Part shown: positions 33-62,523 of the stretch, in pieces
How positions within the stretch are numbered: the first letter of the stretch is position 1
Layout of the letters: the number at the start of each line of letters is the position of its first letter
Assembly (NCBI GenBank): GCA_028289465.1
Contig: JANQPM010000030.1
Coordinates: 1 to 64,000, forward strand
Direction: 5' to 3'
Origin: Lysobacterales bacterium
GTDB lineage: Bacteria; Pseudomonadota; Gammaproteobacteria; Xanthomonadales; SZUA-36
DNA length: 64,000 bases
The notes under the pieces: model-generated
Databases searched by the model: none
What the model was told of the DNA's origin: nothing
The model's input: the letters and a program-made list of their open reading frames with translations, nothing else
Translations under genes and position numbers: made by a program

Positions 33-570
33 AAAGGTGTCTCGCGCCCGCTTCTTTCGTAGCGCAGGTGGAGTCAGACGGCGGTTTCGCTATAGCGAAG
101 AAGCCTTCTGACGAAACCGTTAAGCGCGTGCAGGTGGAGTCAGACGTGCTTAACGGCGCCTGCTGGTCGGCTTCTTTGCCGCTGGCAAAACCGCCGACCA
201 AGTCACCTGCGCTGCGGTTTCGCGATAGCGAAGCCTTCTGGCGCAGCCGTTAAGCGCGTGTGGACGAAAACCGCAACCGCACACCCCCCAAGTTATCCAT
301 TTCGGACTTCCCAGTCTGGCTTCTTTCCTTTCGGAAAACCGCCAGACTGTCCAGCCGGGGTTACGACGTGCAACTAACGCACGACCCCTCTGGTGTCGCT
401 CGCCCTCTGGTATCGCTCGCGTTGCTCGCTCACCCAACCAGGAGAGCAAGCCAGTGAAAGCATGGCGGCTTGCGCAACGCGCAAGAAGCCGTGCTTCACC
501 GCGCCCGCTCCGGCGGGTCGCCTGCGGCTCCTTCAGCCGGGTTTTGCACCCGGTATCCTGCTGTTTCATG
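33..570. repeat. Mosaic of nested palindromic intergenic repeats
   Basis: This stretch has no convincing gene; the short reading frames in it lack ribosome sites and family resemblance. It is built of hairpins inside hairpins. 73-112 has arms GTCAGA/TCTGAC around TTCGC-TATA-GCGAA. 148-255 has a 10-bp outer stem and two inner branches. 312-349 has arms CAGTCTGGC/GCCAGACTG around TTTCC/GGAAA. The direct repeat GCAGGTGGAGTCAGACG occurs twice, at about 64 and 130. The unit beginning GGTGTCT near 36 and the CCCGCTCCGGCGGG hairpin near 506 recur elsewhere in the window (1837, 2703, 24598, 25440, 29778, 53704). This is a repeat family of unknown function; whether it acts as DNA or RNA structure is not known. 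Confidence 0.75.
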
Positions 571-2698: not shown

Positions 2699-2850
2699 CT
2701 AAGGTGTCTTGCAGCCGCTTTTTTCGCCTGACGGCGAAAACCGCAACCGCAAGACTTCATTAGTTCATAGATTCCAGCCTCTGATTCGCTGCGCGAACCA
2801 ACCGGCTGCAATCGGCGCAGTCTTGCAGCCGCTTCTTTGGCCTGTGGATC
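2699..2850. repeat. Nested hairpin repeat downstream of the DUF481 gene
   Basis: Starts at the stop codon of the upstream gene. Outer arms GTCTTGC (2706-2712) and GCAAGAC (2749-2755) enclose an inner perfect hairpin, TTTTCGCC (2721-2728) and GGCGAAAA (2733-2740) around TGAC. The following part (about 2770-2800, with CTCTGATTCGCTGCGC) is nearly the same as 53838-53853, and a second GTCTTGCAGCCGCTTCTTT copy lies at about 2819-2837. The outer hairpin with downstream T-poor sequence is not a classical terminator, though it may end transcripts. It belongs to the family described at 33-570. Confidence 0.7.
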
Positions 2851-6751: not shown

Positions 6752-8053
6752 GTGAAAACATTGACTCAGAGTGTCAGCCTCAAACTGGCTTTTGTATTGT
6801 TTCTCAGTTTTCTGATGCTGGTGCCGCTGGTGCTGGTGCAGGATTTGATCTCCGAGCGGGAAGGCCGGCAGCACGAAGCGAAGCACCGCATCGCATCACG
6901 CTGGGGACACCAGCAGAGTATCGCCGGGCCGGTCTTGCTGTTTCCACGCATGTATGAGCAAAAGACCGAACGCGGGCTCCGTTCGCGTGAACGCCTGATG
7001 GCTCTGGTACCCGACGTGCTGGATATTCGGGTCACGCAACAGACGGAAGTCCGCTATCTGGGCATGTACGAAGCACCGGTCTATCTAACCGACATCAATA
7101 TCAGCGGCGAGCTGGACTGGCGACTGCTGCGGCAGTACCAACCGGTCGGCCCGATTCGTTTCTGGGTACCGGTAACCGACGTGCGCGGATTGCGCGCGGC
7201 CGGCCATCTACGCATCGGACAGCAAGAGCTGCCAGCGGAGCCGCTGGCTGCGGCCGGCGAAAGCTATAGCGGGCTGCAATTCAGTCTGCCCGACCCGGAC
7301 GGGGCGGACGGAAAGCAGGCCTTTTCGCTGTCGCTGCGCCTGGCGGGCAGCGAAGCATTGTATTTTCTGCCTTTGGCCGAGCGCATTTCCGCTGCGGTTG
7401 ACAGTGACTGGCAGGATCCCGAATTCGTCGGCGAGTATCTGCCGGTCCATCGGCAGATCGGCGCTGACGGCACCCAGGCAAGTTGGCAGTTGCTGGGGCT
7501 GAACCGGTCTTTTGCCAGCCACTGGTGGGTGGATGAGATGCCGATGGCGCGTCTGCAGCAATCCGCATTCGGTATGCGGCTGGAGATTCCGGTGGATATC
7601 TATCAGCAAAACGAACGCAGCGCCAAATACGGTGTGCTGTTTATCGCGTTGACCTTTCTGGGGCTGTTTTTATTCGAAGTGATCTACCGTAGTCCACTGC
7701 ACCCGATTCAATACGGCCTGTGCGGCGCGGCGCTGGCGATTTTCTATGTGTTGCTGCTGGCCTTGTCGGAACACCTGGGCTTCGGTTCGGCCTACCTGAT
7801 CGCCGCCGCGGCGTTGGTTTCGATACTTGGCGGCTACTGCAAAGTGGTGTTGAAATCCGCAGCCAAGGGGTTGACTGTCGCCGGCCTGATCGGCGCGACC
7901 TACGCGCTGCTCTATTTCCTGATTGTCGCCGAGCAGTATTCGCTGTTATTCGGCTCGATTGCGCTGTTGGCCGTGATTGCCGCGATTATGTATTTTACCC
8001 GGGATATCAACTGGTACCGTTATGACCAGCGGGGTAACGCGGCGGATACATGA
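6752..8053 (+). CDS. creD: CreD-family inner-membrane protein
   Basis: A 433-residue membrane protein of the CreD family (E. coli CreD has 450 residues), associated with envelope stress and, in some species, beta-lactam or colicin response. It has one N-terminal transmembrane helix (residues 10-30), a large periplasmic region of about 260 residues that includes L-G-x-Y-E-A-P-V-Y and F-R-x-S-F-A-S-H-W-W-V-D-E-M-like motifs, and five to six C-terminal helices, with F-L-G-L-F-L-F-E-V-I-Y and P-L-H-P-I-Q-Y-G-L-C-G typical of the family. It starts with GTG. No creABC genes lie nearby, so control by CreBC cannot be inferred. Confidence 0.9.
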   Translation: MKTLTQSVSLKLAFVLFLSFLMLVPLVLVQDLISEREGRQHEAKHRIASRWGHQQSIAGPVLLFPRMYEQKTERGLRSRERLMALVPDVLDIRVTQQTEVRYLGMYEAPVYLTDINISGELDWRLLRQYQPVGPIRFWVPVTDVRGLRAAGHLRIGQQELPAEPLAAAGESYSGLQFSLPDPDGADGKQAFSLSLRLAGSEALYFLPLAERISAAVDSDWQDPEFVGEYLPVHRQIGADGTQASWQLLGLNRSFASHWWVDEMPMARLQQSAFGMRLEIPVDIYQQNERSAKYGVLFIALTFLGLFLFEVIYRSPLHPIQYGLCGAALAIFYVLLLALSEHLGFGSAYLIAAAALVSILGGYCKVVLKSAAKGLTVAGLIGATYALLYFLIVAEQYSLLFGSIALLAVIAAIMYFTRDINWYRYDQRGNAADT

Positions 8054-11428: not shown

Positions 11429-12313
11429 CTAACAGAACTCCGTTAATGCACTGGCGCAGTCATCGGGCGTTATCGGGCGCTGCAACAGGCCCAGCGAACT
11501 CAAGGTGTCAACGATTTCCTGAAGGCGTCCCCGGCTCATTTGACGGCTGTCGCTCCATTCGGTCAGCGACAGCCATTGGTCCACTTGTGCGACATCCAGC
11601 CGGTAGCGGCCGGCAATGGTCCGGTTGATGCCTTCGCGATCCTTAAAATTTTTGCAGACCTTCAGCATCACATCCCATAGCTTCCTAATGAGCGAGGCAT
11701 GGTTTTGCAGCGCGGATTCCGAAGCGGCCAGTACAAAGGCCGGCCAGGGAGTCGGGATTTCACCCACCCGGCGCAGGTCGCCGGAATCGACGAGCGGCTG
11801 GGTGGTGAAGCGCTCCCACAGAAAACCGTCGGCCTGCCAGATCGAAAAGGCTTTTACCGCACCCTCCAGCGTACCGATCTCGAGGAACTTCAGATCGACG
11901 GTACTCCAGCCCATTTGCTGGGCCAGTACATAGGTCATCAGATGCGACCCCGAACCCTGGCGGCTGATCGCAAAGCGGTGCCGGTGCAGGTGTTCGGCCC
12001 GGGCGAAGCCGGAATCGGCCGGCACATGAATGCCCCAGATCAGCGGCGAGAAAACGTACCAGCCCAGTATTTTTATCGGCAGCCCTTTGGCGATGGCCGC
12101 CACCGTACCCTGGCTCAGGGTCAGTGCGAGGTCGATCCCGCCGGCGGCCAGCGAACGTGTCATTGCACCGGTACCGTCGGGAAAGTCTCGCCACTTGAGG
12201 TCGATGCCGATATCGGCGAACCGGCCTTCTTCCTGCGCCAGATGCCACGGCAGATTGAAATGTTCCGGCACTCCGCCGATGGTGATCGCAGTCCGTTGCA
12301 CGACGCGCTCCAT
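11429..12313 (-). CDS. Periplasmic-binding-protein-like (type 2 PBP) protein without signal peptide
   Basis: A 294-residue protein of the NMT1/SsuA/TauA-like type 2 binding fold: I-T-I-G-G-V-P-E-H-F-N-L-P-W-H-L-A-Q-E-E-G-R-F-A-D-I-G-I-D-L-K-W at the start, G-T-G-A-M-T-R-S-L-A-A-G-G-I-D-L-A-L-T-L in the first lobe, then G-S-G-S-H-L-M-T-Y-V-L-A. No signal peptide precedes the fold and no ABC permease or ATPase is adjacent, so it is probably cytoplasmic and not a transporter component. This fits the Ca3427-like subgroup, a family I know from fungi and bacteria whose ligand is not settled. The two-lobed structure implies small-molecule binding. Confidence 0.78.
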   Translation of the reverse strand: MERVVQRTAITIGGVPEHFNLPWHLAQEEGRFADIGIDLKWRDFPDGTGAMTRSLAAGGIDLALTLSQGTVAAIAKGLPIKILGWYVFSPLIWGIHVPADSGFARAEHLHRHRFAISRQGSGSHLMTYVLAQQMGWSTVDLKFLEIGTLEGAVKAFSIWQADGFLWERFTTQPLVDSGDLRRVGEIPTPWPAFVLAASESALQNHASLIRKLWDVMLKVCKNFKDREGINRTIAGRYRLDVAQVDQWLSLTEWSDSRQMSRGRLQEIVDTLSSLGLLQRPITPDDCASALTEFC

Positions 12314-12458
12314 AGGATTTGTCAGAATCGAGGTTGTCAGTAGGGAATATGCAGCCTGGGACGCCGGAGTGCAATACGGAAAAGTGCCTACCGCCCTCCC
12401 AAAACGACGACGGTCGTAACAGCGCAGTCTTATGCCGTTCCCGTGAGCTATTCGAAGC

Positions 12459-12851
12459 TCATATCAGCCACTGTATCAGGCCTGTTGGCGAGTGCAGGCG
12501 GGCGACGCTGACAATCCACAGGAAAACCGCCAGCGCCGATATAAACGCAGCGATCCGGGTCGTGCGCGTGGAGCCCCGCTTCAATGCCATTGAACCCAGA
12601 ATGATATAGGCCAATAGGCCGAAGATTTTGGCGGTCAGCCAGCCATTTACAAACGGATACTGGTGGATCAGCGCGGCAAGCGCCAAACCGGAAATCAAAA
12701 AGACCGTATCGACAATGTGCGGCAAAGTCCGGGTGACCGGATGATGCAGCAGCGGCGAGCGCCGCATCATCCAGATGCCGCGCAACAGAAAGCCGCTGAC
12801 CGTCAGCAAGGCCAGCATGACGTGGATCTGCTTGAGCAGAGAATATGCCAT
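12459..12851 (-). CDS. SirB2-family membrane protein
   Basis: A 130-residue inner-membrane protein of the SirB2 family. It has four predicted helices and the family pattern K-Q-I-H-V-M-L-A-L-L-T-V-S-G-F-L-L-R-G near the N-terminus, with H-I-V-D-T-V-F-L-I-S-G in the middle, and conserved His residues suggestive of haem or redox association. The molecular function is unknown. It starts 4 bases after fnr and is the last gene of the nsrR-fnr-sirB2 unit, which hints at a role in respiratory or NO physiology. Confidence 0.85.
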   Translation of the reverse strand: MAYSLLKQIHVMLALLTVSGFLLRGIWMMRRSPLLHHPVTRTLPHIVDTVFLISGLALAALIHQYPFVNGWLTAKIFGLLAYIILGSMALKRGSTRTTRIAAFISALAVFLWIVSVARLHSPTGLIQWLI

Positions 12852-36988: not shown

Positions 36989-36993
36989 AATAA

Positions 36994-37180
36994 GACCCTC
37001 CGCGAATGCCGCTGCCGGATCGGTGACCTTGAACCAAAGGTTCAGGTGGGACGGCTCTCAGTGCCTCAGGCTTTTCGCTCACTTGCGAACATGCACACTG
37101 GCATCAGATCTGCCACCCCGAGGTCGAAAAATAGGGACAAGGCATTTTTCGAGCCGACTGGCTAACACCGCAGAGGGCAA
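36994..37180 (-). ncRNA. ssrS: 6S RNA
   Basis: The interval between zapA and ygfA, read on the minus strand, has the features of 6S RNA. The end sequences CCCTCTGCGGTG and CATTCGCGGAGGG pair as the closing stem. A 5' segment contains GTTCGCAAGTGAGCG. The 3' segment carries CCTGAACCTTTGGTTCAAGG followed by GCAGCGGCATTCGCGGAGG, close to the E. coli 3' half. The middle is open and GC-poor, as required for binding RNA polymerase. Ends are estimated from the closing stem and may shift by several bases. It globally down-regulates sigma-70 promoters in stationary phase. Confidence 0.88.
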
Positions 37181-53463: not shown

Positions 53464-53516
53464 AAACTCTGTAATGGAAGGAGATTGACCAGACCCATCT
53501 GAACAGCTATCTGGCC

Positions 53517-53626
53517 ACTCATTTCCCGACGTTATGCCGCAGGAGTTGGCACCTTTATCCACCGGGTTAGGCTGGATGGTTGCCCCGGCGTCTTCGGGCC
53601 TGTCCCTCAGCCGGTCTAAATGAGTC
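53517..53626 (-). promoter_or_regulatory. SAM-I (S-box) riboswitch upstream of metX
   Basis: On the minus strand the leader shows the conserved S-box core. The P1 arms CTCATTT and AAATGAG are at the ends. Next come GGCTGAGGGACAGGCCC, then GAAG and CCGGGGCAACC, and, after a variable arm, AAGGTGCCAACTCCTGC, before GGGAAATGAG. These are the SAM-pocket and kink-turn segments of the class. It would shut off metX-metB-hom when S-adenosylmethionine is abundant. The variable P3 arm contains CCTAACCCGGTGG. Confidence 0.93.
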
Positions 53627-53699: not shown

Positions 53700-53900
53700 G
53701 GCATGTGTCTTGGGCCCGCTTCTTTCGAGCACAGGTGGAGTCAGACGTGCTTAACGGTGCCTGCTGGCCGGCTTCTTTCCTTCGGAAAACCACCGGACTG
53801 TCCAGCCTGGGCTACGACATTAGTTTATTGGATTCCAGTCTCTGATTCGCTGCGCAAGCCAACCGGTTGTCATCGGCAGCGTCTTTGGCCCGTTTTCACG
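53700..53900. repeat. Nested palindromic repeat (copy of the 33-350 family)
   Basis: Shares long stretches with the left end of the window: ACAGGTGGAGTCAGACGTGC and GCTTAACGG-GCCTGCTGG as at 130-165, and GGCTTCTTTCC...GGAAAACC as at 319-340. The part from about 53827 is like 2773-2812. The inner hairpin TTTCC-TTC-GGAAA is at 53776-53788. Apart from this, the stretch between metX and cysG (53428-54156) holds the riboswitch and a REP pair only. Confidence 0.75.
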
Positions 53901-53915
53901 AAAACCGAATTCTGG

Positions 53916-54024
53916 TGTAGGAGCGCCTTTAGGCGCGATAACCACAGCTATTCCCAACCGGGGCTGTTTCTAACCAGGGCTTTCGCCAGGCGAAAAAACG
54001 TTCGCGCCTGAAGGCCCTCCTACA
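53916..54024. repeat. REP doublet, inverted pair
   Basis: TGTAGGAGCGCCTTTAGGCG-CGATAA (53916-53941) faces TTCGCGCCTGAAGGCCCTCC-TACA (54001-54024). A small hairpin TTTCGCC-AG-GCGAAA lies between them at about 53981. The element is in the leader region of cysG. Confidence 0.85.
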
Positions 54025-57587: not shown

Positions 57588-57679
57588 GTAGGAGCGCCTT
57601 TAGGCGCGAAATCATCGAATTTTTTCTGACGTTGAGCCTAAATCGGTTTAATTTAATCGTGCCTGAAGGCGCTCCTACA
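57588..57679. repeat. REP doublet, inverted pair
   Basis: GTAGGAGCGCCTTTAGGCGC-GAAA (57588-57611) faces TCGTGCCTGAAGGCGCTCC-TACA (57657-57679). It lies between the divergent oxyR and acyl-CoA thioesterase genes. The other bases of the gap show a TATAAT at 57723-57728 before the thioesterase gene. Confidence 0.85.
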
Positions 57680-62460: not shown

Positions 62461-62523
62461 TCGCGCCTGACGACGCTCCTACAGGCTTGGTTAAGGACTG
62501 TAGGAGCGCCTTTAGGCGCGATA
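62461..62523. repeat. REP doublet, tail-to-tail orientation
   Basis: TCGCGCCTGACGACGCTCC-TACA (62461-62483) and TGTAGGAGCGCCTTTAGGCG-CGATA (62499-62523) are joined by a 15-base spacer. The order is opposite to the other three pairs, whose TGTAG ends point outwards. It separates the convergent S9 and Dcp-like genes. Confidence 0.85.

Follow-up and report, generated by a model that had tools for sequence, protein, structure and literature searches.

Hairpin copies in the window

The DNA analysed here (the window) is a stretch of 64,000 nucleotides from a bacterium of the order Lysobacterales. The original prediction had listed six places in it that share a short frame, GCTTCTTT..AAAACCGC, around an inner palindrome, and all six hold the frame or part of it. 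A covariance model, R1, built from other genomes only, gave six matches in the window. Three of them are full-length copies of the element described below: element 1 (61–128, minus strand, folding strand plus; 68 nt, 41.5 bits, E 1.2e-8), element 3 (145–213, plus, folding strand minus; 69 nt, 41.6 bits, E 1.2e-8) and a copy at 443–507 (minus; 36.0 bits, E 3.9e-7) that had been missed in the predicted list. In a further copy (312–351, plus; 32.5 bits, E 3.4e-6; DNA fold z −6.2) the upper part, stems P3 and P4, is recognisable, and the copy at 53748–53813 (plus; 25.8 bits, E 2.1e-4) has a degraded base. The remaining match, at 2710–2751 (plus), is weak (16.1 bits only, E 0.09) and belongs to a stand-alone hairpin of a second architecture (2706–2755, plus; DNA fold z −5.2), which has the same apex as many copies in the genome, placed on a long basal stem without P1 and P2.

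Positions 28–290 read as a three-level nest, in which the loop of a hairpin received element 1 and its tandem neighbour, element 2, and element 2 was in turn split by element 3. The outer hairpin is of the stand-alone type (plus strand), its left half at 38–60 (GGTGTCTCGCGCCC-GCTTCTTT type) and its right half at 259–283 (GGACGAAAACCGCAACCGCACAC), with element 1 sitting in the loop. When joined, the two halves give the intact hairpin found at two other loci (L041/L037), with two bases (CC) missing. Element 2 (minus strand) was delimited by comparison of joined flanks, with a left half at 129–144 and a right half at 214–258: segments 127–144 and 214–258, once joined, match element 1 minus a CG at the junction, plus a further 3-base gap, and uninterrupted copies are found in L051/L060. 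At each junction of these nested insertions two bases are thus missing. The nest explains the predicted copies at 73–112, 165–199 and 207–246, the last of which lies mostly in the right half of the split element 2. It also explains why the hairpins had been called nested; the word is literally right, but the nesting is due to insertion of one copy into another, which had been overlooked. The composite of about 330 bp is repeated across the genome at 76–97 % identity, often at contig ends.

A second repeat, of the classical REP type (GTAGGAGCGCCTTTAGGCGCGA), occurs in the window mostly as inverted pairs (1061–1084, 1131–1148(−), 53917–53938, 54002–54019(−), 57588–57609, 57657–57674(−), 62461–62478(−) and 62504–62521). 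Another hairpin repeat, CCTCTGATTCGCTGCGCGAACCAACCGG, is present at 2777–2806 and 53838–53867; its loop is likewise TGC, its joint a 3x3 TCT/AAC, and its variants adjoin elements in several families of the order. An Rfam search of the window detected a 6S RNA (36993–37179, minus) and a SAM riboswitch of the S box type (53516–53626, minus), which is not known to be common in gammaproteobacteria.

Abundance and taxonomic range

The frame, searched as GCTTYTTT-N3..20-AAAACCGC, gave 119 exact matches in the 2.95 Mb host genome versus none for the reversed control pattern, so that the predicted repeat family is real and larger than described. A covariance-model search had been proposed as the check, with fewer than ten copies or a lack of covariation as the result that would speak against the family; it returned at least 134 matches in the host genome (150 candidates scored), with strong covariation. 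Among 300 genomes of the order, 62 hold the frame, concentrated in families f1 (that of the host), f8, f9 and f10, each of which has new inner stems. Model R1 finds the element in 63 of the 300, and it is common in three families. Elsewhere in the class, in a sample of about 360 genomes, R1 detected it in only 4. No copy was found in the viral contigs, plasmids and phages searched, nor in the Lysobacterales and Arenicella MAGs that one gene of the window identified as the closest named relatives, and the element has no match in Rfam at either threshold.

The element is a compound hairpin with covarying stems

The frame proved to be the apex of a compound hairpin of about 68 nt, in which four stems are separated by conserved unpaired joints, and whose length is nearly fixed among relatives. 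On the strand on which the frame was predicted (hereafter the frame strand) it reads C-P1(4)-YAC-P2(GGCA type)-TTC-P3(9 bp with a mismatch)-TTC-P4-TNC loop-P4'-ACC-P3'-TCAT-P2'-T-P1'-T. The complement reads A-P1-A-GGCA(P2)-ATGA-P3-GGT-P4-GNA loop-P4'-GAA-P3'-GAA-TGCC(P2')-GTN-P1'-G. The full unit is longer than the predicted one, and its folding strand, as shown below, is the opposite one.

Inner stem sequences are unrelated between copies (CC/GG, GCC/GGC, CGTCC/GGACG, CACACCC/GGGTGTG and others), and their flanks are fixed. In A1, the alignment of 23 gap-free copies from which R1 was built and which was not itself fitted to a model, two-sided changes were seen in 18 of 23 pairs. Two larger alignments were fitted to the model. 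For A2 (115 distinct copies from relatives), 21 of 23 pairs had compensatory changes, with 616 two-sided cells versus 185 after shuffling and 78–122 when partners were slid by 1–3 columns; one-sided intermediates were almost absent beside them. For A3 (98 distinct copies of the host genome), 457 two-sided changes were counted versus 171 in shuffles. Pairing of the inner arms is thus kept while their bases change, as had been predicted, and the structure of the element is conserved.

Mispairs designate the folding strand

Mispairs within stems were unevenly distributed. On the frame strand, A.C exceeded G.T by 75 to 24 in relatives and by 91 to 47 in the host. The excess was found in 23 of 25 informative genomes and reversed in 2 (sign test, p=2e-5); R1 had been built on the frame strand, so that any scoring bias is opposite to the observed asymmetry. 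It follows from this A.C excess that the folding strand is the complement of the frame strand, and the asymmetry suggests that the folded form is recognised strand-specifically. Wobble pairs make up 3.4 % of cells on the folding strand, a value like that of tRNA stems. Triloops on this strand are GNA in 74 of 93 cases with a closing pair that is mostly C-G, i.e. C(GNA)G, and a GNA triloop closed by C-G gives a DNA hairpin great stability. Purines predominate in the joints (GGT/GAA, ATGA/GAA), and the consensus folded as DNA on this strand gives the designed structure.

The element inserts precisely

Empty sites were sought by joining the flanks of copies and searching them against all fetched loci, and uninterrupted counterparts were found at many sites. 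Two filled sites lie in a gene encoding a divergent Y1 protein: GATCCA/CT/GGCG has become GATCCA[CGCATA..TATGCT]GGCG in one, and GCTCA/TG/ATGG has become GCTCA[CGCACG..TGTGCT]ATGG in the other. Altogether the element has entered this gene at about eight positions, near residues 28, 44, 67, 140, 168, 180, 191 and 269. A copy of tRNA-Ser(TGA) is likewise split at TGCA/CT/GGTC, with an intact paralogue adjoining. On the frame strand the element runs C..T and its left flank is CA (A in 98 of 102 sites, C in 82 of 102). Insertion is precise, without target duplication, and about two target bases are replaced; the empty counterparts are mostly homologues of 75–90 % identity, so the absence of duplication is better established than the exact count of bases replaced. 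The element is mobile, has precise ends and inserts into its own copies. Covariation, conserved joints, strand asymmetry and the pairs of filled and empty sites together support the original proposal of selection on the structure, or of its copying by a structure-dependent process.

The element also forms tandem arrays with a period of 66 bp; one complete genome (L194) has two, at 6807–7006 and 12098–12495, about 5 kb apart. Upstream of intact tRNA-Ser(TGA) genes, several species carry tandem units, in each of which the 5' half of tRNA-Ser is combined with an element and with a fold-back copy of the anticodon arm (L062 847–1271, L065, L071, L122). In genus g2 (L109–L112, L129), the CCA of tRNA-Phe, Lys, Met and Leu is directly followed by a hairpin with the same apex, which always has the orientation of the tRNA and lies at about equal distance. 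Orientation of the element showed no replication-strand bias in three complete genomes (36 vs 46, p=0.32), and none relative to flanking ORFs on rough ORF calls (18 vs 20 between co-directional genes of the host genome).

A candidate enzyme

Several of the interrupted genes encode a protein of about 315–340 aa with NHFH/NHYH (NHxH), FWE and YVDLNP motifs. This length and these motifs equal those reported for TnpA-Y1 subclass 2.3, and that subclass has been described as having no identifiable REP-like structures associated with it (PMC6006769). A linkage to RAYTs was also sought with the Pfam Y1_Tnp profile (PF01797), which gave no match in the host genome and did not track with the element; this result is misleading, because the profile matches the divergent protein weakly, at or below the cut-off.

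Of the 99 distinct full-length sites in the relatives' set, 18 fall within the divergent Y1 gene or next to it, although this gene takes up well under 1 % of genomes, with the caveat that dispensable genes tolerate insertions better than others. In one genome (G036), 8 of 17 elements are inside copies of this gene. The host genome has two copies of a subclass 2.3-like gene, both cut off by contig ends. Outside the order, when matches of similar strength are compared, the gene is present in 3 of 4 element-bearing genomes versus 4 of the other 36 (our hypergeometric estimate, p ~0.01), one of the three (G614) having fragments only. Across 38 genomes gene and element did not correlate: at least nine element-bearing genomes were without the gene and ten element-poor ones had it. 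Nor was any intact subclass 2.3-like gene found flanked by elements; of 30 loci with such genes only three hold an element, each time interrupting a gene copy. TnpA-Y1 subclass 2.3 may nevertheless be regarded as the leading candidate mobiliser, still unproven.

Discussion

The repeats of the window belong to a previously undescribed family of mobile DNA hairpins of about 68 bases, with more than 100 copies in the host and further copies in related families. Elements of this kind are already known from TnpA-REP systems, which comprise high-copy mobile palindromes, strand-specific recognition and an essential unpaired region (PMC8266576). REPs of the GTAG super-family are short imperfect hairpins in high copy, mostly intergenic, arranged in pairs and arrays, with compensatory stem variants (PMC3733652, PMC8266576). 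The E. coli TnpA-REP acts on one strand specifically and depends on an unpaired region within the stem (PMC8266576), and for subclass 2.4 insertions of REPs into tnpA-REP genes have been described (PMC6006769). The element resembles GTAG REPs as a short imperfect hairpin in high copy number, in its mostly intergenic location, in its arrangement in pairs and arrays, and in its compensatory stem variants and strand-specific folded form. It differs in its size of about 68 nt with four stems and three conserved joints, as against 20–40 nt, and some copies lie inside genes. Also unlike GTAG REPs, it does not stand beside intact transposase genes, and one set of joints is common to three families of an order. 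GTAG/GTGG is absent from the 5' foot in 193 full-length copies, where the folding strand has A-P1 and the opposite one CA-C-P1. CGTC REPs are palindromic and abundant, and their dedicated transposase is unknown (PMC3733652); they have an 8–9 bp stem, a CGTC tag and a CCA tail, none of which the element has, and its size and joints are other (A1/A2, flank counts). As predicted, then, no named family fits: the element is neither a GTAG nor a CGTC REP by its tags (PMC3733652), is not in Rfam, and is not an attC site, the inverse core RYYYAAC / GTTRRRY not being seen at the conserved ends in A1.

With the ends of IS200/IS605 elements it shares the lack of target duplication and, probably, the folded single strand. 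Insertion without duplication beside a fixed short sequence, here the left flank CA, is as in IS200/IS605, and a strand-specific folded substrate is indicated indirectly by the A.C/G.T asymmetry. The guide pairing near the IS200/IS605 cleavage site may have its likeness in the variable stem P1. In contrast to IS200/IS605, the element has no transposase inside, replaces about two target bases, a loss that textbooks do not describe for IS200/IS605, and shows no replication-strand bias, unlike the fork-coupled insertion of the IS608 type.

The explanation we favour, by somewhat more than even chances, is that the copies are miniature mobile elements of a REP-like kind, about 68 nt long, whose folded single strand is recognised and moved by an enzyme, most likely an HUH/Y1 single-strand transposase. 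The stems drift freely provided that pairing holds; the joints are fixed, as is the C(GNA)G loop, presumably as points of protein contact. Insertion takes place beside CA on the frame strand; no target sequence is duplicated, and about two of its bases are replaced. The enzyme may be the TnpA-Y1 of subclass 2.3, of about 320 aa, whose own genes are often hit; that the substrate is single-stranded DNA and the chemistry of the HUH type is likewise what we infer. This explanation is weakened by the two-base target loss and by the lack of GT[AG]G at the 5' foot. It is also weakened by gene presence not tracking the element, by intact genes being unflanked and by the absence of replication-strand bias, which our confidence takes into account.

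About half as probable is a structured mobile element moved by another agent, such as a reverse transcriptase acting on folded RNA, an integron-type tyrosine recombinase acting on folded single strands, or another nuclease. Strand-specific folding would suit RNA or any enzyme of folded single-stranded DNA, element-bearing genomes without subclass 2.3 exist, several of them also without a PF01797 match (though this profile misses the subclass), and a two-base replacement is unusual for IS200/IS605. The missing attC motifs argue against the integron version, and the recurrent insertions in a single HUH gene family are best accounted for by cis action of the encoded protein. That the hairpin is a functional RNA, either a cis element or a small RNA, with selection on its structure at every site, seems to us improbable. 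Covariation with strand asymmetry is typical of RNA, the wobble frequency is that of tRNA stems, and some copies lie just after tRNA genes in one orientation, but copies are not biased relative to flanking ORFs, occur within transposase genes and within each other, and match nothing in Rfam. A last idea is that of neutral palindromes whose perfection is maintained by template-switch (quasi-palindrome) correction, in the absence of any recognition. This would yield two-sided changes with nearly no one-sided intermediates, but such correction would erase the conserved mismatched joints, could not produce the strand asymmetry of A.C and G.T and does not account for precise insertion at many sites; the present results thus make it very improbable.

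A more specific form of the single-strand transposase explanation, which we put forward tentatively as having about one chance in three, is that the element is the missing substrate of TnpA-Y1 subclass 2.3 and a new type of REP, in which the terminal four-base stem P1 would be the guide/cleavage-site duplex, free to covary, and only the unpaired purine joints would be recognised. If this is true, one subclass 2.3 enzyme moves copies whose stems share no sequence. The single-strand transposases of this subclass had no known DNA partner, and the present family is a candidate; with its precise ends, its empty sites and natural variants in the hundreds, the question can be tested directly. It offers an unusually clear case in which recognition rests on unpaired joints and compensatory changes let every stem drift, probably at the level of DNA and not of RNA. 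The family accounts for the mosaic intergenic clusters and the contig breaks in these genomes.
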